A program made the translations under genes and the position numbers. The notes under the pieces are model-generated. The model did no database searches, was not told the origin of the DNA, and was given only the letters and a program-made list of their open reading frames with translations. This document shows, in pieces, positions 5,183 to 38,596 of a stretch of 41,540 bases of DNA. Each line of letters opens with the position of its first letter. The stretch's first letter is position 1. The DNA is from Acidobacteriota bacterium (GTDB lineage Bacteria; Acidobacteriota; Thermoanaerobaculia; Gp7-AA8), in NCBI GenBank assembly GCA_016184115.1, contig JACPDH010000121.1, positions 1 to 41,540 on the forward strand, written 5' to 3'.

Positions 5183-7618
5183 GTGCCTTTCCGCAACCTC
5201 ATCGCAATCGCTTTCTCGATTGGCATCGCAGCTTCCGTATTCGCGCAGTCCGAGGTGGACATCGAGAAATTCACGAATGGTCAGGACGCGGACACCGCCC
5301 CCGGACCGGTCGTGATCGTAGGGGACACGGTTTCATGGACGTATGTCGTGACGAACACCGGCAGCAGGCCACTGACGAACATCAGTGTGACGGACGACCA
5401 GGGTGTGACCGTCACCTGCCCAGGCACGACGCTCGATGCAGGCTTCTCGTTCACCTGCACCGCGAGCGGCACCGCGTTGTCGGGCCAGTATGCAAACATC
5501 GGGACCGTTAGCGCGGAACTACCTGATGCGACGCCAGTCAGCGATTCTGACCCAAGCCATTACTTCGGGCAGGCTGTCGCGTCGATCTCGATCGAGAAGC
5601 GGACGAACGGATTCGATGCCGACATCGCTCCCGGCCCTTCCGTCCCGGTGGGCAGCACAGTGAACTGGGAGTATGAGATCACGAACATTGGTGCTGACGA
5701 CCTTTCCGATATTTCGGTCACAGATGATCAAGGAGTGGTGGTCTCGTGCCCTGGAACGACCTTGGCTCCCGGCGCATCGATGACCTGCACGGCGTCGGCT
5801 CTTGCCCAGGCTGGTCAGTATTCGAACATCGGTACGGTCAACGCGACCCTTCCCAGCGAAGACCCAACGGCAGCTTCGGATCCGAGTCACTACTACGGCC
5901 AAACGCTCGTTCTGGTGAAAAGGACCAACGGAATTCAATCGGAAACCCCGCCGGGGCCCGCGGTCGCGCCCGGCTCAACGGTCACATGGACCTACCAAGT
6001 GACGAACCCGGGACCTGCGACGGTCACGGGACTCTCGGTCACGGATGATCAGGGCGTCACCGTCACTTGCCCGCAAACGACGCTCGCCGCCGGCGAAAGC
6101 GTCACGTGCACGGGCAGCGATATCGCGCAAGCAGGTCAGTACACCAACGTCGGAACTGCAAGCGCGACCCTGCCGCTCGGCGGAATCGTCACCGCGACCG
6201 ACAGCGGCTTCTACTTCGCAAATTCCATCGCGATCGAGAAGTCCACCAACGGAGTCGATGCCGACCTCCCTCCTGGTCCGTCATTGAGTCCCGGGTCGGT
6301 GGTCGACTGGACCTACGTCGTCACGAACCTCGGAAGCGAGACCCTAACAGCCGTGGGCGTGACCGATGACCAGGGCGTCACTGTTACCTGCCCGGGGACC
6401 ACACTCGGCCCCGGTGCATCGATGACCTGCACCGCCTCGGGCGTCGCAATCTCCGGCCAGTATGCCAACGTCGGAACCGTCGATGCGACATCGCCGACGC
6501 TCGGAGCTCTCTCAGCATCTGACCCGAGTCACTATTTTGGTCAGACCGTCGATCTCGACTTCGGCGACGCGCCCGATCCAGCATTCCAGACACTCTTCGC
6601 GTCGAACGGCGCACGTCACATTCTCGGCGGTGCCGTGTTTCTGGGCGCGTGTGTCGACGCCGAGGCCGACGGACTCACGAGTGCTGGAGCGGACGGCGAC
6701 GACCTCGCGGCAGGGACGACCTTCGGAACCTGCGCGACGCCTGGAGACGATGAAGATGGCGTCGTGTTCACGACAGCCCTCCTCACCGGCATGACCGCGA
6801 GTGTCGATGTCGTCGCATCCTTACCGTGCACCCTCTCCGCATGGATCGATTTCGCCGGCGACGGCGACTGGGGAGACGCGGGTGAGAATCTTTTCCCTGG
6901 TGGGACGGCGCTCGCTGCCGGCACGAACTCCCTCAACTTCGCAGTGCCGGCCTCCGCAGTACCGGGAACGACATCTGCCCGGTTCCGCTGCACCACCGAC
7001 GGCGCAGTAGGCTTCACAGGCGAGGCGGGCGACGGCGAAGTCGAGGACTACACCGTCACGATCGAACTTCCAGTCGTTTCCGTTTCGGCAACCAAGGTCG
7101 CATCGCTGTCGGTCGACGTGGACAGCGACAGCCTTGCCGACCCGGGCGACACACTCCTCTACACGATTACCATCGTGAATAGCGGCACCGATGACGCTAC
7201 CGGGGTCACGTTCATCGACGCGCCCGACGTCAATACGGCGCTCGTCGCCGGTTCCGTGACGACGACCGCCGGTACGGTTACGACGGGAAACACGGTCGGC
7301 GATTCGACAGTCGCCGTAAACGTGGGAACAGTCGCGGCGTTAGGCGGGACCGTGACGATCACGTTCCAGGTCACGATCGACAATCCGTTCCCCATCGGTG
7401 TGGCGGAGGTCTCGAATCAGGGGGTTGTCTCCGGCGACAACTTCGCCGACACGCCGACCGACGATCCCGCCGCGGGGGGTGCGGCTGACGCGACGACCAC
7501 GCCCATTTCCGCCGCCGCGGCGGCCGGGGCTCCGATCCCAGCCACCGGCACCTGGGCGCTGATTGCGATGATCGCGATTCTCGGGCTTGTGGCCGTGCGG
7601 AGGATTGCAACCGGTTGA
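5183..7618 (+). CDS. Secreted DUF11-repeat / GEVED-domain protein with IPTL-CTERM-like tail
   Basis: 811 residues. Start is GTG 5183, fixed by a perfect AGGAGG six bases upstream and by the signal peptide that follows immediately (hydrophobic residues 5-20, cleavage after VFA near 21). Four DUF11-like Ig-fold repeats of about 105-110 residues follow (DNA starts near 5262, 5590, 5912 and 6232), each with the pattern IEKxTNGxDAD, a PGP turn, WxYxVTNxG, VTDDQGVTVTCPGTTL and SDPSHYFGQ. Next comes a GEVED domain (DFGDAPD, DDEDGV, WIDFAGDGDWGDAGE, GEAGDGEVEDYTV), then a fifth, diverged DUF11 domain. The C-terminus (PIPATGTWALIAMIAILGLVAVRR, given as segments: PxP, WAL, hydrophobic helix, RR) resembles IPTL-CTERM sorting signals, implying outer-surface anchoring by a dedicated protease. 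Likely structural or adhesive surface protein. Confidence 0.9.
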   Translation: MPFRNLIAIAFSIGIAASVFAQSEVDIEKFTNGQDADTAPGPVVIVGDTVSWTYVVTNTGSRPLTNISVTDDQGVTVTCPGTTLDAGFSFTCTASGTALSGQYANIGTVSAELPDATPVSDSDPSHYFGQAVASISIEKRTNGFDADIAPGPSVPVGSTVNWEYEITNIGADDLSDISVTDDQGVVVSCPGTTLAPGASMTCTASALAQAGQYSNIGTVNATLPSEDPTAASDPSHYYGQTLVLVKRTNGIQSETPPGPAVAPGSTVTWTYQVTNPGPATVTGLSVTDDQGVTVTCPQTTLAAGESVTCTGSDIAQAGQYTNVGTASATLPLGGIVTATDSGFYFANSIAIEKSTNGVDADLPPGPSLSPGSVVDWTYVVTNLGSETLTAVGVTDDQGVTVTCPGTTLGPGASMTCTASGVAISGQYANVGTVDATSPTLGALSASDPSHYFGQTVDLDFGDAPDPAFQTLFASNGARHILGGAVFLGACVDAEADGLTSAGADGDDLAAGTTFGTCATPGDDEDGVVFTTALLTGMTASVDVVASLPCTLSAWIDFAGDGDWGDAGENLFPGGTALAAGTNSLNFAVPASAVPGTTSARFRCTTDGAVGFTGEAGDGEVEDYTVTIELPVVSVSATKVASLSVDVDSDSLADPGDTLLYTITIVNSGTDDATGVTFIDAPDVNTALVAGSVTTTAGTVTTGNTVGDSTVAVNVGTVAALGGTVTITFQVTIDNPFPIGVAEVSNQGVVSGDNFADTPTDDPAAGGAADATTTPISAAAAAGAPIPATGTWALIAMIAILGLVAVRRIATG

Positions 7619-7678
7619 TACGAATGAGGCGATCGGACCTGCACCAGACGCTGGGGCGCCGCGGAAGGTATCTCCGGA

Positions 7679-7698
7679 GCACGGCTCCAGTGCCGTGC
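7679..7698. terminator. Weak hairpin downstream of the DUF11 gene
   Basis: 7-bp stem GCACGGC/GCCGTGC with a six-base loop, 60 bases past the stop codon, no U-tract. Possible transcription stop for the surface-protein gene. Confidence 0.3.
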
Positions 7699-7848
7699 CA
7701 GGCGCAACGACCAAGCAGCTGACCCCGCCACCGCGGCACCGCTGCGGCACCAGCGAAGCAGTAGCGCGCTCGCTCCGTCAGGGAGGAACCGCACGTCCCC
7801 GCGCGATATACTGACGAGCCGAAATCCCCGCGGCGCTCCGACTCCGGA

Positions 7849-8736
7849 ATGGCGAGCAAAGACACTACGACTTCCGACTTCTCCGCTGAGGACTCAGCAG
7901 TCCTTCGCATCCCGGCGTGCATCGTTCAAATCTACGGCGGTGACATCGGCAAGCGGGTAGCGTTCGACACTGACGAGATCACGATCGGCCGCGACGACGA
8001 CAACACGATCGTGGTCGACCTGTCGACCGTCTCGCGTCACCACGCGCGACTCGTGCAGCACGCCAGAACGTGCCACGTCGAGGACCTCGGAAGCACGAAT
8101 GGCTCGTTCATCAACGGCGATCGCGTCACAGGCCTTCGCGAGCTGCGAAGCGGCGATCTTCTGAAGGTGGGCGGCGCCGTCTTCAAGTTCATCGAGGGTG
8201 GCAACATCGAGGCGCTCTACTACGAGGAGATCTACCGCCTAACGATCATCGATGGGCTGACCCAGATACCGAACAAGCGCTACCTCCTCGATTTTCTCGA
8301 TCGTGAGCTCGCGCGCTCCCGACGACACCAACGCCCCCTCCACCTCGCGATGCTCGACGTCGATCATTTCAAGAGGGTCAATGACGAGATGGGCCATGTC
8401 GCCGGAGACACGGTCCTGCGCGGCATCGCGCAAATCCTTCAGAGCGAAGTGCGTCGCGACGAGCTCGCCGCGCGCTTCGGTGGCGAGGAGTTCACCATCG
8501 TCCTCCCGGAAACCGAACTCACGGGAGCCATCGCCTTCTGCGAACGCATCCGCGAGAGTGTCGCATCACACCCGTTTCGCGAGAATGCGCGGGAGATCAA
8601 CGTCACGGTGAGCATCGGCCTTGCGGGAGTCGAGCCCGACTTCGACGGCGACCAGTTCATCGCAGCCGCCGATCGACGCCTCTACAGCGCAAAGGCATCC
8701 GGGCGTAATCGCGTCGTGTACGACGAGAGCGAGTGA
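7849..8736 (+). CDS. FHA-GGDEF diguanylate cyclase
   Basis: 295 residues, no membrane segment, so cytoplasmic. An FHA phosphothreonine-binding domain occupies about residues 24-115 (G47-R48, S62-RHH, GSTNGSFING with the key Asn). A GGDEF domain follows from about 125, starting with the characteristic DGLTQIPNKR and carrying LDVDHFKRVND and the active-site G211-G-E-E-F215. It should make cyclic di-GMP from two GTP, with activity gated by binding of a phosphorylated protein. The product-inhibition I-site RxxD normally five residues before the GGDEF is changed to R202-R-D-E205, so feedback may be weaker. A Ser/Thr kinase lies 0.6 kb downstream on the other strand and is an obvious candidate partner. 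A TATACT -10-like hexamer lies at 7807-7812 without a good -35. Confidence 0.93.
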   Translation: MASKDTTTSDFSAEDSAVLRIPACIVQIYGGDIGKRVAFDTDEITIGRDDDNTIVVDLSTVSRHHARLVQHARTCHVEDLGSTNGSFINGDRVTGLRELRSGDLLKVGGAVFKFIEGGNIEALYYEEIYRLTIIDGLTQIPNKRYLLDFLDRELARSRRHQRPLHLAMLDVDHFKRVNDEMGHVAGDTVLRGIAQILQSEVRRDELAARFGGEEFTIVLPETELTGAIAFCERIRESVASHPFRENAREINVTVSIGLAGVEPDFDGDQFIAAADRRLYSAKASGRNRVVYDESE

Positions 8737-8831
8737 GTGGGAGTCTTTTCTCGCGAATAGCTCGACAGTGGCACCAAGGGCAGCAGGGTCGCGAACAGAG
8801 CCTTGTTGCACCCTCGATCGCCAAAGGAGGA

Positions 8832-8855
8832 AGGCGCCGGCTTGCGCCGGCGCCT
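8832..8855. terminator. Bidirectional terminator-like hairpin
   Basis: Perfect 10-bp stem (AGGCGCCGGC and its complement) with loop TTGC, placed between the convergent ends of the diguanylate cyclase gene and the small beta-rich protein gene. No clear U-tract on either side. Confidence 0.55.
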
Positions 8856-8895
8856 GGCATGCGGAGACGAGAAACTAAAATCGCTAGCTGCAGGA

Positions 8896-32683: not shown

Positions 32684-32869
32684 ACGCGCCTGAAGCGGCG
32701 CATCACCCGACCCGCTCCCGGCAGATTTCCAGCACCTTCTGCCCCGCACAGGAGTAGGCTCTGTGCATAACCGGGATTCCGCAACCGCTCTGCACCGGCC
32801 ACGCCCTGCGCGAGAACGCCGTCGCGGCCGACGGAGTTATTACGAACCTTGGCTCTTTGCGGAGGCTAC

Positions 32870-34462
32870 ATGAAATCCGGGCACTTCCCCCTTCTGGCCG
32901 CCCTCCTCATCCTCTTCACAGCGCAGTTCGCCGGTGCGGCCGAATTCGTCGCCGAAAAATCGATCGAACTGCCATCGGCCTCGTTCAATCGGGCGGAGCA
33001 TTTCGCGACCATGACGGCTCTGCAGTCGCGGCTCAGCCGTTCCGCCGTCGAGCTCGCGTATGCTGCGCCGCTCGACGTTCGCGTTTCACCCGAGCGAATT
33101 CGCGCCGTACGGCAGCAGGCGACGGGAGCACAGAAGCTGCGCGTCGGCGTCGTGACCGAACTGGCGATTCCGGTGACCTTCGCGCGCGATCGCGTGCGAT
33201 CGGGTCGCGCGACGCTGCACGATACCGTTGGCGCACTCCACGGCACCGACGACGGGGGCTTCGAATGGACCGCCGTCATCCGCTCGCCCGAGGCGGCCGC
33301 GGTGCGCGTCGGCTTCTCCGGCTTCGACCTGCCCGATGGATCGGAGCTCTACGTCTTCACCGACGGTGGGATGGCATTCGGACCGTACACGGGAAGGGGA
33401 CCTAACGGCGACGGGGAGTTCTGGACGAACACCGTCGCGGGAAGCGAGATCGTCATGGAGCTCCACGCCGGACGGGCGGGAGCGCCTCGATTCACGATCA
33501 GCGCGTTTGGTCATCTCACGGACGCGTTCGCGATCGCGGGAGCTCTCGCACCGAGACCCGAGGCCGCGCAGCCTAACTGCAGCGTGAACGCGAACTGCGT
33601 CGTCGGCGCCAACTGCGTTGCCACCAACAGCGCCGTGAACACGGCCAAGGACGCCGTGGCCCACATCCTCTTCGCCTCTGGCGGCTGGCTCTACATCTGC
33701 TCCGGAGGCCTCGTCGCCGACAGCGACACCGGCACGAACATCCCCTACTTCGTGACCGCGAACCACTGCATCAGCCGCGCGAGCGAAGCAAGCAGCCTCG
33801 AGACGTTCTTCTTCTACGAGGCGGCGTGCGGGAGCTGTCCTGACCCCGGTGCCGCAGCGACGACCGGCTCGACGATCGCATCGACGAGCAAGACGAGCGA
33901 CTACACGCTGCTTCGCCTCAGTCAGAACGCGCCTTCGGGCGCTGCGTTCCTCGGATGGAGCAGCGCCGAGATTGCGTTCACGAACAATGCACCGCTCTAT
34001 CGCATCAGCCACCCGAAGGGCGCACCCCAGTCGTACTCCGAACAGGTCGTCGACACGTCGAAAGGCGTCTGCCGCTCGTGGCCCAGGGGCAACTGGATAT
34101 ACAGTCGCGATACGTTAGGCGCGACGGAGGGCGGCAGCAGCGGCTCGCCTGTCGTCAACGGTTCGGGCCAGCTCGTCGGCCAGCTGTCGGGTGCCTGCGG
34201 CACGAACGTGAACGACGTGTGCGATTCCGCGAAAAACGCCACCGTCGACGGCGCGTTTGCGGCGTACTACCCGGGAATCGCCGCAATCCTCGGCCCCGGC
34301 GGGGACGGCGGTTGCATCGATGCCGACGGCGACGGTGTCTGCGCGTCTGAAGGCGACTGCAATGACAACGACGCGTCGATCTACCCGGGAGCCAACGACA
34401 CGAAGGGCAAGCGCGGCCGCGACGGTATCGACAACGACTGCGACGGCACGCCCGACGCGTAA
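32870..34462 (+). CDS. Secreted Lys-C-like (trypsin fold) serine protease with MopE-like C-terminal motif
   Basis: 530 residues from ATG 32870 (GGAGG four bases before). Signal peptide to about residue 24. A propeptide-like region with a beta-rich P-domain-like part (about 60-235) precedes the catalytic domain. Catalytic triad: His299 in VTANHC, Asp344 in SDYTLLRL and Ser424 in GGSSGSPV. Several cysteines (CSVNANC, CGSC, CGTN, C-D) suggest disulphides. The last about 50 residues hold CIDADGDGVCASEGDCNDNDASIYPGA… DGIDNDCDG (in segments: DxDGDGVC, EGDCNDND, DGIDNDCDG), a MopE-like metal-binding motif common at the end of exported proteins. Likely an outer or secreted endoprotease, perhaps Lys-specific. 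Hairpin downstream at 34484. Confidence 0.92.
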   Translation: MKSGHFPLLAALLILFTAQFAGAAEFVAEKSIELPSASFNRAEHFATMTALQSRLSRSAVELAYAAPLDVRVSPERIRAVRQQATGAQKLRVGVVTELAIPVTFARDRVRSGRATLHDTVGALHGTDDGGFEWTAVIRSPEAAAVRVGFSGFDLPDGSELYVFTDGGMAFGPYTGRGPNGDGEFWTNTVAGSEIVMELHAGRAGAPRFTISAFGHLTDAFAIAGALAPRPEAAQPNCSVNANCVVGANCVATNSAVNTAKDAVAHILFASGGWLYICSGGLVADSDTGTNIPYFVTANHCISRASEASSLETFFFYEAACGSCPDPGAAATTGSTIASTSKTSDYTLLRLSQNAPSGAAFLGWSSAEIAFTNNAPLYRISHPKGAPQSYSEQVVDTSKGVCRSWPRGNWIYSRDTLGATEGGSSGSPVVNGSGQLVGQLSGACGTNVNDVCDSAKNATVDGAFAAYYPGIAAILGPGGDGGCIDADGDGVCASEGDCNDNDASIYPGANDTKGKRGRDGIDNDCDGTPDA

Positions 34463-34483
34463 CGCCACCTTGATCGCCGCTCG

Positions 34484-34517
34484 TGACAGGGTGGGACCGC
34501 AAGGTCCCGCCCCGTCA
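34484..34517. terminator. Strong terminator-like hairpin with GCAA tetraloop
   Basis: TGACAGGGTGGGACC paired with GGTCCCGCCCCGTCA around GCAA: 14 of 15 positions pair (one G·U, one mismatch). It sits between convergent genes (protease and membrane protein). No U-tract. Confidence 0.55.
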
Positions 34518-34539
34518 TAACGCTCGCATCGAGCCCCTA

Positions 34540-35031
34540 TCAGTGTGCGCGATGCGACGACCAGTAACCGATCAGTGCGACCGGAAGACCGACGAGAACC
34601 AGGTGCCCCCCGAAGTTCGCGGCAAACCACGCCGGGTTGAATGCCGCCTGATTCGCGTTCGAGAGCGGGATCACGATGCGGTTCATGACGAGGTAGACGA
34701 GCGCTCCGTATGCCATGCCGAAAATCACCGGCCTTCGGTTGAGCGCGGGAACTGCGCGACAACCGAGATACCAGACGCTCGCGATGCTGAACGCGATGAG
34801 GCAGTGGAGCAAGGCGCCGATCGACGCGGTCGTGACTCCACCCGAGAACGACTCGCGGCCGAAGATTCCAGCTGCAACGCTCTGAAAAATCATGCGTGGA
34901 GGGGTACCGCGATAGAGATGCCAGAAGACGATCGCGTTGGCAATATCGAGGGTCGCGACGGCCGCGCCGCCTAACACAATCGTCGTAAACGCCTTCGGCC
35001 GTCGTATCGATTCGTTCGGAGTCTCCAACAC
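34540..35031 (-). CDS. Four-helix integral membrane protein, unknown
   Basis: 163 residues with four hydrophobic segments (about 15-37, 63-85, 101-120 and 136-157). Small-residue and Gly/Ala motifs inside the helices (GGAAVATLDIANAIVFW, GGVTTASIGALLHC) recall the DUF1440/YagU-like group of small membrane proteins, but this is not a firm match. The C-terminus is short and basic. A hypothetical inner-membrane protein; it starts 157 bases from and diverges from the RiPP cyclase gene, so a shared control region is possible. Confidence 0.7.
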   Translation of the reverse strand: MLETPNESIRRPKAFTTIVLGGAAVATLDIANAIVFWHLYRGTPPRMIFQSVAAGIFGRESFSGGVTTASIGALLHCLIAFSIASVWYLGCRAVPALNRRPVIFGMAYGALVYLVMNRIVIPLSNANQAAFNPAWFAANFGGHLVLVGLPVALIGYWSSHRAH

Positions 35032-35188
35032 ATCCTCCCTCGTCGCGATGTCCAGCCCGACATTCGCTCGGTTTTCCGCTTACTTGCGTTCTGATTCCTT
35101 CGCACTCTACCGCTCCGGCGAATCCGATTCGTAACGCCGTGGTGAATTCTCCATAGGACGATGCGGCAGCCATGTAGGATCTACCCAG

Positions 35189-37021
35189 GTGAAGGCGTTT
35201 GCCGCAGTTCTTCGCCTCGACGGCAGGGCCGTCCACGACGCTGAAGTCGAGCGCATGGCGCGCGCCTGCGACCTCGGCACCGCAACCACGACGTGGACCT
35301 CGGGCGCCGCGGGACTCGTCGCCGGCGTCAGCGCAGCGCCAGGACGGCTCGACCTCGCAATCAGCGCCGACTGCCGGCTCGACAATCGAGAGGAGCTCGC
35401 CGATGCGTTGGAGATCGAGCGGAGCCGGCTCCCGGAGACGAGCGATGACGCTCTCATTCTCGCCGCCTGGGAACGATGGGGGACCTCGTGCTGCGATCGG
35501 CTTCTTGGCGACTTCTCGTTCGCAATCGTCGATGCGCACACACGACGGCTCTTCTGCGCGCGCGACCCAATCGGCGCAAAGCCTCTCTATGTCTTCCGTT
35601 CGCCAGATGTGCTGGCCGTTGCGTCGCGCGTTTCCCCGATTCGCATGCTCCCCGACGTCACTCTGACGTTGAACGAGCGGCGTGTCGCCGACGTCTTCGT
35701 CTCCGCACTCGAAGGCTTCGATCACGAGAGTACCTTCTTCCGCGAGATCGAACGGCTCGCACCGGCTCACTGGCTTCTCGTCGAGAATGGCAATGTCACG
35801 AGACGCCGGTATTGGACGCCGCCCGAGCCGGTCGAAGCGTTCCAAGACGAAGAAACCGCAGACGAGGCGCTTCGCCATGTGCTCAGCGCCGCCGTTCGCT
35901 GCCGTCTCGATCGCGACGGCTCCTCGGCGATCATGTTGAGCGGAGGGCTCGACTCCTCCGCGATCGTCTCGCTCGCGTGTGCAGCGCGAGGCGCAGCCGT
36001 ACGTACCTGTTCGGTGGTCAGCGATGAGCCTGACTGCGTCGAGTCGGCCCGCATCAGGACCGTCGCGGGCGCGCGCGGCGTCGAGTCGCGACTCTTCGTT
36101 GCGAGCGACGTGTCGGCGATGGGGTCGGATCTCGAGTCGGTCGTCCTCGTGGGTGAAGAGCCGTTCGACGCGTTCATGGCGCTGCCACAATTGGTGTATG
36201 CGAAGGAAACCGGAACCTCGTCATCGATCGTCGACGGAGTCGACGGAGATCTCGCCGTGTCGCTCCTCGGCTCACCCATTCCCCACTTGATCCGAACGGG
36301 CCGATGGGCGAGCGCGCTACGGCAGACGTTCAGCGAATCGGAGGGTCGCGCCCTTACTGCCGTGAGGCGCTTCGCGGGAAGCCTACTCACCACCGCGCGA
36401 CTTCGCCGGCCCTTTACGAGCACGGACGAGCTGGCGTCGATCGCTGTCGATGAAGGCTTCGCCCGTCGCCACGCGGTGAGAGAACGCACGCGCATCGTCT
36501 CGGAACGGCTTCGCTTCGACCCACGCCTGCCGGTCGCGCACGAGCAGTGGCGCGTCCTCACCGATCCGTTCGTCGCGAGCGGACTGGAGCGCTACGCGCG
36601 CGTCGCGGGAAGGTTCGGCATCGAGCCGCGCCATCCCTTCTTCGACCGGCGCGTGCTCGAATTCTGCGCGTCGCTGCCCTGGAGCCTCAAGCTTCGCGGC
36701 CGGCACCGAAAGTACCTGCTCCGGCGCGCGTTCGCCCAGGCACTACCACGCGAGATCGTCTGGTCGGAGGAGCGACGGCATCTCGGCATCGACGTCTACC
36801 GCGCGCTGCTCGCACGCTTCGACGAACAGATTCGTGACGCTCTTTCAATGACCGGTGCCATCGGTGAGGTCGTCGATCTGGAGCGAGTTCATCAATCCTA
36901 TCGAAAGATTTGTACGAAATTCGGGTCTATTGAGGACTGTACTGTTGTGTGGAGGGCTGCAGTCTGCTCGATCTGGTTGAACCGGATCGCCACACAAGGA
37001 CGGTTCAGTGCTCAAACGTGA
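35189..37021 (+). CDS. Asparagine-synthetase-like RiPP macrocyclase (lasso cyclase, McjC-like)
   Basis: 610 residues from GTG 35189 (AGGA nine bases upstream). The N-terminal half keeps the Ntn fold of glutamine amidotransferases (DCRLDNREEL, GDFSFAIVDAHTRRLFCARDPIGAKPLY) but starts MKAFAA, lacking the catalytic Cys2, so it cannot hydrolyse glutamine. The C-terminal half is an adenylating synthetase with the PPi-loop SGGLDSS (251-257) and a later GIEPRHPFFDRRVLEF. Lack of the Cys with an intact ATP loop is the lasso-cyclase pattern: AMP-activation of an Asp/Glu side chain, then ring closure with the N-terminal amine. Overlaps the precursor gene by 14 bases; GHMP/HPrK-like and PqqD-like genes follow. 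Confidence 0.88.
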   Translation: MKAFAAVLRLDGRAVHDAEVERMARACDLGTATTTWTSGAAGLVAGVSAAPGRLDLAISADCRLDNREELADALEIERSRLPETSDDALILAAWERWGTSCCDRLLGDFSFAIVDAHTRRLFCARDPIGAKPLYVFRSPDVLAVASRVSPIRMLPDVTLTLNERRVADVFVSALEGFDHESTFFREIERLAPAHWLLVENGNVTRRRYWTPPEPVEAFQDEETADEALRHVLSAAVRCRLDRDGSSAIMLSGGLDSSAIVSLACAARGAAVRTCSVVSDEPDCVESARIRTVAGARGVESRLFVASDVSAMGSDLESVVLVGEEPFDAFMALPQLVYAKETGTSSSIVDGVDGDLAVSLLGSPIPHLIRTGRWASALRQTFSESEGRALTAVRRFAGSLLTTARLRRPFTSTDELASIAVDEGFARRHAVRERTRIVSERLRFDPRLPVAHEQWRVLTDPFVASGLERYARVAGRFGIEPRHPFFDRRVLEFCASLPWSLKLRGRHRKYLLRRAFAQALPREIVWSEERRHLGIDVYRALLARFDEQIRDALSMTGAIGEVVDLERVHQSYRKICTKFGSIEDCTVVWRAAVCSIWLNRIATQGRFSAQT

Positions 37022-37220
37022 CGACATTGCTGACGACTTCGACGCCTTCCCGAACGGGGAAGCGAAGCGAATCCTCGGACAGCCTGTCCGCGCGCCTTAC
37101 GTGAGCCCCGTTCTCACCCGCCTTGGCGGCGTCGCCGAGCTTACGGCTCAGCTCTCGCCGTCGCAAAAAGCGGCCGACAAGGTCGAGAACTTCGGACACC
37201 CCGACGGATTCAGGTTTTGA
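37008..37220 (+). CDS. Lasso-type RiPP precursor peptide
   Basis: 70 residues from GTG 37008 (AAGGA seven bases upstream), overlapping the cyclase gene end. Residues 31-46 are Y-V-S-P-V-L-T-R-L-G-G-V-A-E-L-T, an exact fit to the lasso leader motif YxxPxLxxxG(x5)T with the Thr at leader position -2. This places the cut after Ala47 and a 23-residue core starting at Gln48. An unusually long 30-residue acidic/basic extension precedes the motif. In the core (QLSPSQKAAD…GHPDGFRF) the first acidic residue is at position 10 (Asp57), not 7-9. Substrate of the flanking cyclase; a RiPP of undetermined type. Confidence 0.75.
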   Translation: MLKRDDIADDFDAFPNGEAKRILGQPVRAPYVSPVLTRLGGVAELTAQLSPSQKAADKVENFGHPDGFRF

Positions 37221-37231
37221 AGGAGGGCACA

Positions 37232-38227
37232 ATGACCGCCGCATCAGCTGGTTCCTTGCCTCGTTCGGGTGGCGAGTTTGCGCCTAACGCATACCGCTAT
37301 TTCGATTTCACGATCTCCAGCAGCTTCCCGATTCCCGAGCTGCCGGCGGCGCCCGAGACCACGCCGGCGCTTGCGATCGCAATGTCTCCGGCCATCGAAC
37401 GCGGCGACCGATTCGAGCCCGTGCTCGAGTGGCGCAACTCCGAGGGAGACATCGCATCGAAGCTCTTCGCATTCGAGCGTCGTCTCGTGCTCGATTTTCC
37501 GGGTCTCGGAGCGTTCGAAGTGTCGGCCGGGAGCGGAGCCGTGCGATGCATCACAGGCGGCACGAACCCATCCGAGGCGGTTCGCCATCTGCTGCTCACA
37601 TCGGTCTTGCCGCTGCTCACCGCCGGACGGGGCAACCTGGTTCTTCACGCGTCGTGCGTCGCGATTGACGCCGCGGCGGTGCTCTTCGTCGGACACTCCG
37701 GCGCAGGCAAGTCGACGCTCGCCGCCGGTCTCGCGCACGAAGGGTATGAGTTCATCTCAGATGACTGTGTGCTCGTGACGCCGTCACGGGACGGCGCGCT
37801 ATGTGTCGCACCGTTCGACGAACTGCGTCTCTGGCCCGACAGCGCTGCCGCCTTACTCAACGACGCCTCGTGCACCGGGCCTGTTCCTGGAGCGCCAGGA
37901 AAGCTTCGCACGAACGCGCATGGACCGGTGCATCGCGCGACCGCCAACTCCGTGCCGCTTCGCGCGATCTACGTCGTCGAGCCGATGCCGTCGTCGAGCT
38001 CGCCCGCAATCGTGCCGCTGAGCCCTGCCGAGGCGTTCGAGGCGCTCCTCTCGAACCAGTTCCGGCTCGATCCGAGAGACGAAGGCTGCGCGCGCGCTCA
38101 CTTCGATGCACTCGCGGAACTGACGGCGAGCTGCGCGACGTCGCGCCTCCAAGTTCCGCGGAGCCTCAGCGCACTGCCATACGTCTGTCGTGAGATCGTC
38201 GCGGACACCAGGGATCGGGTCGAGTGA
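37232..38227 (+). CDS. HPr kinase/phosphorylase-like protein of the RiPP locus
   Basis: 331 residues from ATG 37232, with GGAGG a few bases upstream; its frame begins in the end of the precursor gene. It has the P-loop FVGHSGAGKST (Walker A G154-T161) in an LHASCVAID…AVLF context, followed by FISDDCVLV with two conserved aspartates (177-178), the layout of HprK-like kinases found in RiPP clusters. The N-terminal HPrK domain of the metabolic enzyme is replaced by a divergent beta-rich region. In the paeninodin pathway such a kinase phosphorylates the precursor's C-terminal Ser; here the core ends in Phe, so the target Ser (for example 50 or 52) or a different role is open. Same operon as the cyclase. 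Confidence 0.85.
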   Translation: MTAASAGSLPRSGGEFAPNAYRYFDFTISSSFPIPELPAAPETTPALAIAMSPAIERGDRFEPVLEWRNSEGDIASKLFAFERRLVLDFPGLGAFEVSAGSGAVRCITGGTNPSEAVRHLLLTSVLPLLTAGRGNLVLHASCVAIDAAAVLFVGHSGAGKSTLAAGLAHEGYEFISDDCVLVTPSRDGALCVAPFDELRLWPDSAAALLNDASCTGPVPGAPGKLRTNAHGPVHRATANSVPLRAIYVVEPMPSSSSPAIVPLSPAEAFEALLSNQFRLDPRDEGCARAHFDALAELTASCATSRLQVPRSLSALPYVCREIVADTRDRVE

Positions 38228-38242
38228 CGGGAAGCGCGCGCG

Positions 38243-38509
38243 TCAATCCGACTCGATCAGGATGCGCTTCTCGAGAAGCTCGGCTACGAGCTTGTGCAGA
38301 TCTTCGCGAATCTCGGGCGCATCTGTATCGAAGCGTTCGAGCATCGTCCGCACGATTGCGTCGTCATCGGCACCGTTCAGCAGCAGCTCGAGCATGCTCC
38401 GTCCCGTGGTATTGAGCGCGTAGTAGACGCCATTCCCAAGCTCGAGCATCACGAGATCGGCGCCGAGCTCTCGCGTCATGACGCTTTCAGAAAGGCGGTA
38501 TCGCGGCAT
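38243..38509 (-). CDS. PqqD-like RiPP leader-recognition protein
   Basis: 88 residues from ATG 38509, the usual length of a stand-alone RRE. It begins MPRYRLSESVMTRELG and continues with LVMLELGNGVYYALNTTGRSMLELL, the classic PqqD strand-helix pattern; a C-terminal helical part (about 50-85) follows. It should bind the YxxPxLxxxG leader motif and present the precursor to the cyclase. Convergent with the HPrK-like gene (15-base gap) rather than in the same operon, which is unusual. An in-frame extension further upstream would pass through palindrome D and is rejected. Confidence 0.88.
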   Translation of the reverse strand: MPRYRLSESVMTRELGADLVMLELGNGVYYALNTTGRSMLELLLNGADDDAIVRTMLERFDTDAPEIREDLHKLVAELLEKRILIESD

Positions 38510-38551
38510 GACGACGATTATCGCGCCGTCCGGCTCGTTCGCGAGCCTCGC

Positions 38552-38595
38552 GTTCTGTATTGGCGGAACTTGTGTCTGTTCCGCCAATACAGAAC
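38552..38595. repeat. Palindromic element D (44 bp hairpin)
   Basis: Perfect 18-base arms GTTCTGTATTGGCGGAAC with an 8-base loop TTGTGTCT. It ends one base before the stop codon of the M48 protease gene and begins about 42 bases upstream of the PqqD-like start. Shares CTGTATTGG-N-GGAA with elements A-C. Likely a terminator for the protease gene. Confidence 0.75.
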
Positions 38596-38596
38596 T

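Follow-up and report, generated by a model that had tools for sequence, protein, structure and literature searches.

The four genes at positions 35189–38509 of the window (the whole stretch of DNA that was analysed, 41,540 nucleotides) probably form a phosphorylated-type lasso-peptide cassette, as judged from gene content and motifs; that the product is phosphorylated and folds as a lasso is a prediction. The cassette is accompanied by no B2 leader protease on its contig. The reading that we consider the most probable is that exchangeable lasso cassettes are served in trans by a B2 that is resident elsewhere in the genome. Gene identities, motifs, the synteny of B2, an empty insertion site and an unrelated B2-less cassette in a congener can all be read directly from the sequences. 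The window is the entire contig C41 of a genome of 4.42 Mb in 126 contigs that is 97% complete.

Gene content of the cassette

The features discussed here are as follows.

35189–37021, plus strand: lasso macrolactam cyclase (C) of the Asn-synthase family, 610 aa; assigned from PF00733, NF033535 and the cyclase tree
37008–37220, plus strand: precursor peptide (A), 70 aa; assigned from the exact leader motif and a position matching that of relatives' precursors
37232–38227, plus strand: HPrK-type lasso precursor kinase (K); assigned from TIGR04352 (below cut-off) and the H-G-G-G-K-S-D-D motif
38243–38509, minus strand: PqqD-like leader-binding protein (B1/RRE); assigned from PF05402, NF033530 (below cut-off) and TbiB1
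32690–38596, no strand: accessory slot holding a trypsin-like gene, a membrane protein and the lasso cassette; delimited by flank alignment with the congener G004

The first-pass annotation had recognized the same set of cyclase, precursor, HPrK-like kinase and convergent PqqD-like protein, and this assignment stands. It had described them as an overlapping run; the cyclase and precursor genes do overlap by 14 nt, but there is no other overlap if the kinase starts at 37232, where an ATG is preceded by AAGGAGG, a strong ribosome-binding site. All four genes are open and their motifs are intact. A profile search across contig C41 returned zero PF13471 matches, in agreement with the earlier remark that no B2 transglutaminase-like protease lies nearby; one is present elsewhere in the genome. 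The locus does not fit the description of a linear polyphosphorylated peptide (LPP) system, as the cassette has a cyclase and the locus contains no SpI-like peptidase. The trypsin-like protein that shares the accessory slot with the cassette (32849–34462) carries a C-terminal MopE-type metal-binding motif.

The cyclase, which starts with GTG, matches PF00733 (1.5e-38) and GATase_7 (2e-22). Its best match is the NCBIfam lasso cyclase model NF033535 (4e-103), yet the score is under the 525-bit cut-off of that model. The SGGLDSS PP-loop is intact and, since residue 2 is Lys, Cys2 is absent, both as first described. In the cyclase tree the protein falls in a supported clade of 11 that is nested among lasso cyclases and spans Proteobacteria, Planctomycetota and two further genomes of the window's class. 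The other members of this clade mostly carry B2 close to PqqD; five of the 11 loci are without B2 in the DNA examined. A search of viral contigs with the window cyclase found zero relatives.

The kinase matches TIGR04352 at 2.4e-13, under the cut-off, and contains the lasso-kinase motif H-x14-G-x2-G-x-GKS-x15-DD exactly; the H-G-G-G-K-S-D-D motif and its spacing have been reported for BsfK (PMC10368454). Two unrelated cassettes (L027:3145-4067 and L169:2447-3589) have a PRMT-like methyltransferase gene directly 3′ of their lasso kinase gene, and it may provide extra tailoring. The PqqD/B1 frame starts with ATG, and a longer alternative on the same strand starts with TTG at 38587. The protein matches PF05402 (8e-14) and NF033530 (4.8e-14, under the cut-off), and the solved structure most similar to it is that of the lasso RRE TbiB1 (2.8e-6), so that it qualifies as a discrete RRE.

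The precursor and its displaced ring acceptor

The precursor gene starts with GTG and encodes the leader YVSPVLTRLGGVAELT followed by the core region AQLSPSQKAADKVENFGHPDGFRF. The 70-residue frame singled out in the first-pass annotation is well founded: the leader reproduces the motif YxxPxLxxxGx5T exactly, the only ORF to do so among the 405 of at least 35 aa in the window; the probability of the motif after shuffling of the precursor residues is 1.5e-5; and the codon-position GC is gene-like. With the NF033521 lasso leader model the precursor reaches 18.3 bits, just short of the 19-bit cut-off. Equivalents of the frame were sought in homologous loci and occupy the same place in most of them.

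Ten precursors were compared, taken from the window's cyclase clade plus the complete cluster in the genome of one clade member (G150). The acceptor Asp/Glu is at Thr+9 in nine of the ten, and Ser/Thr is found at Thr+4 (core residue 3) in eight. The window precursor has Ser at both Thr+4 and Thr+6, and its first Asp/Glu is at Thr+11, a position also seen for the acceptor in a few other surveyed precursors. Canonical cleavage, with Thr at −2, puts this acceptor at residue 10 and not at core residue 7–9. The sequence would thus imply either a ten-residue ring after canonical cleavage or cleavage shifted by two. Two residues inserted between leader and core would give the ring S-P-S-Q-K-A-A-D with Thr at −4, and this shifted reading preserves Ser3 and Asp8. 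If true, either Thr at −4 or a ten-residue ring would be an exception to the rules of lasso biosynthesis, and the displaced acceptor makes it possible to test directly which of two enzymes, B2 or the cyclase, imposes the Thr(−2) rule. The window tail, ENFGHPDGFRF, resembles an NGH stretch in the precursor tails of L079:11705-11890, L031 and L030, clade members from other phyla.

An unlinked B2 and its candidate clients

The genome-wide PF13471 search that had been proposed with the first-pass annotation recovered a single clear B2, on contig C124 (1030–1488, minus strand), adjoining malQ and pfk. The protein scores above both the Pfam and the NCBIfam cut-offs (PF13471, 1.5e-18; NF033537, 68 bits with the cut-off at 33); Cys82 and His116 are invariant and an Asp is located at His+12. 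The proposal that the genome lacks B2 was rejected on this basis. A linked B2 could still lie past the contig end, 3 kb to the right, though the 97% complete genome holds one clear PF13471 copy. The proposal that B2 came with this cassette is also unsupported: the C124 protein does not belong to the lineage that partners the window's cyclase clade (the nearest relatives of the cyclase have B2s on other branches), and the B2 tree lacks resolution at its position and leaves its origin unplaced.

In the congener G004 a B2 occurs in the same neighbourhood order, uracil-DNA glycosylase–B2–malQ–pfk. The two B2 proteins are 68% identical (dN 0.24, dS 1.17, dN/dS about 0.21); because the two congeners are kin, this retention counts once. 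Each genome has one B2 and one recognized lasso cyclase. The G004 cassette, on contig C366, comprises PqqD, cyclase, precursor, HPrK and a PRMT-like methyltransferase, again without B2. Its cyclase is 28% identical to that of the window and lies in a different part of the cyclase tree, and its precursor (YVEPRVVLLGSVAKLT-QGNNGSNFD...) has a canonical core with the acceptor at Thr+9. The place of B2 is fixed in both genomes, whereas the cassettes differ in kind and location. The slot that holds the window cassette is recognizable in G004 from flanks that align on both sides (DNA identities of 80% and 78%), with flanking glycosyltransferase and M48 proteins that are 91% and 77% identical. The cassette is absent there and only 1.7 kb of other genes lies between the flanks; the cassette is therefore an accessory insertion, or was lost in G004.

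A scan of named genomes yielded 77 loci with related cyclases. Most of them group PqqD, B2, cyclase, precursors and HPrK, typically in the order PqqD–B2–cyclase–precursor–HPrK, and since most relatives carry the full gene set the window cassette belongs to a known kind of cluster. No B2 was found nearby in 13 of the 77 loci, in the DNA examined, and PF13471 is present elsewhere in ten of those 13 genomes; in the cyanobacterial cases L050, L058 and L060 a B2-less cluster lies next to a complete one. Lasso loci that have no B2 nearby are thus encountered repeatedly. L027 (cyclase–precursor–HPrK, B2-less) was discounted as strong evidence because its contig begins at the cyclase and the B2 of relatives is often upstream. 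Within the 18-genome family, B2 is present in all five genomes with a recognized lasso cassette and in one of the 13 others (hypergeometric 7e-4, a value that ignores kinship and to which contig ends hiding further cassettes could be relevant). The same family also contains a further RiPP-like cassette (L201, L205, L196, L211/L216) that consists of PqqD, a peptide of ∼50 residues with the pattern YxTPxI..MSEREILNTFQ.TQ..M..WW, and HPrK. An Asn-synthase that keeps Cys2 is found near it in L216, and PF13471 is absent from three of the four genomes concerned.

In other split-B lasso systems, B1 takes up the leader and delivers it to B2, B1 also assists the kinase in phosphorylating a core Ser, and ring closure is the task of the cyclase (PMC5067487, PMC10368454). 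By analogy, the window PqqD/B1 would bind the YxxPxL leader, the HPrK-type kinase would phosphorylate a core Ser (Ser3 in either cleavage register), the C124 B2-type cysteine protease would cut the leader in trans, and the cyclase would activate the acceptor Asp and join it to the newly freed N-terminus to close the ring. The cassette would be an accessory insertion and B2 a resident of the genus genome, serving whichever cassette is present. We favour this model as a whole, including cleavage of the window precursor by the C124 protein, with somewhat better than even confidence; the misfit of the core to canonical cleavage with a 7–9-residue ring counts against it. The first-pass annotation had left three options for the leader. 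The C124 B2, its synteny and the G004 cassette favour a protease elsewhere; another protease is possible but less supported, and retention of the leader is unsupported. The fuller combination, in which interchangeable cassettes share one vertically inherited B2 encoded at a housekeeping locus and the core lies two residues further from the recognition Thr (Thr at −4 with an S1-P2-S3...D8 ring, or else a ten-residue ring), is put forward tentatively, as it has less than an even chance of being correct.

Removal of the leader by another protease, with the cyclase closing on the freed N-terminus, appears unlikely. Candidates would be a signal-peptidase-I-like protein on contig C14 of this genome, the trypsin-like protein at 32849–34462, an M48 protein or a housekeeping protease. 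The C14 protein is encoded beside HPrK and PqqD, and in the synthesis of linear polyphosphorylated peptides an enzyme of the signal-peptidase-I-like type removes the leader (PMC13381572). A shifted acceptor would also suit a different cut site, and pseudomycoidin synthesis without leader or leader peptidase has been reported (Zyubko 2019, cited in PMC10885120). Further, in G100 (99% complete), which has a cyclase and precursor of the window's clade, PF13471 was not found, so that a B2-independent route may exist. On the other hand, the C14 protein has its own kinase, RRE and radical SAM gene, the trypsin-like and M48 neighbours appear to be exported, as judged from their N-termini, and the genome does encode a B2 of the lasso type, which is under constraint. 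The two neighbours were accordingly retained as a weak rival only. Two of these loci have features of their own. At L028:9379-11562 in G100 the cyclase and its 63-residue precursor (YTPPKV...VTGGPSGRVEQ) have no B1, B2 or kinase nearby. On C14, the signal-peptidase-I-like, HPrK, PqqD and radical-SAM-like genes lie together (L022, G000 C14:42000-57516, positions 6386–8876); the set resembles the LPP genes of PMC13381572 apart from its additional radical SAM gene, and in the signal-peptidase-I-like protein Cys replaces the usual Ser before Met.

Less likely again is an incomplete and non-functional cassette that lost its own B2 in a rearrangement, the C124 protein serving others such as rSAM-type RiPPs. 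The B2 found close to PqqD in most cyclase-clade relatives, the inverted B1 and the displaced acceptor are consistent with such decay, and two further PqqD–HPrK–rSAM loci in the genome are possible clients of B2. Against this, none of the four genes is interrupted, their motifs are intact, the kinase has a strong ribosome-binding site, G004 repeats the arrangement with a different cassette and a canonical core, and the occurrence of B2 in the family tracks lasso cassettes. Finally, a product that keeps its leader, or a non-lasso product in which the cyclase forms another amide on the uncut precursor, would suit a locus without B2 but is highly improbable given that the cyclase is inside the lasso cyclase tree among B2-bearing clusters, that lasso ring closure uses the new N-terminus (PMC10885120) and that B2 is present in the genome.

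Genome mining expects B2 to adjoin the cyclase. If supply in trans by a resident B2 is true, many 'incomplete' lasso clusters would be functional, and heterologous expression would have to include a gene taken from another part of the genome. An enzyme able to process unrelated lasso cassettes in two congeners would, in addition, make a useful tool.

Comparison with known systems

Phosphorylated lasso clusters of the paeninodin type have the order C-A-K-B1-B2-D in firmicutes (PMC5067487). The window cassette shares with them the C-A-K order, a discrete B1, an HPrK-type kinase and a YxxPxL leader with Thr; it differs in having no B2 in the cluster and in the B1 gene being on the opposite strand. 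The substrate of the Paenibacillus kinase is a C-terminal Ser (PMC7533575), whereas the window core has Phe at its end. The kinase motif spacing is shared with the bsf cluster of Bradymonas sediminis (BsfA/K/B1/B2; PMC10368454), in which BsfK phosphorylates core Ser3 (PMC10368454); Ser3 is present in the window core whichever register is assumed. The bsf cluster contains its B2 and has Ile at −2; Thr takes that place in the window, where B2 is locally absent.

Among the surveyed loci, L042, L079, L092 and others likewise have a cyclase and precursor without a nearby B2 and a B2 elsewhere in the genome. In several of these genomes B2 is part of another lasso cluster or of a B1–B2 pair; that of the window's genus is a solitary gene at malQ. 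Leader proteases outside the gene cluster are known for lanthipeptides (PMC8960859; PMC10885120), which are a different RiPP class served by other protease families. No unclustered protease for lasso peptides was found in the open papers searched, which cover the lasso literature in part, and priority is not claimed. The first-pass annotation had called the locus a divergent RiPP system, which goes too far: its C-A-K-B1 gene set has the known phosphorylated-lasso layout (PMC5067487), and it diverges in its unlinked B2 and in the two-residue shift of the acceptor relative to the leader Thr.
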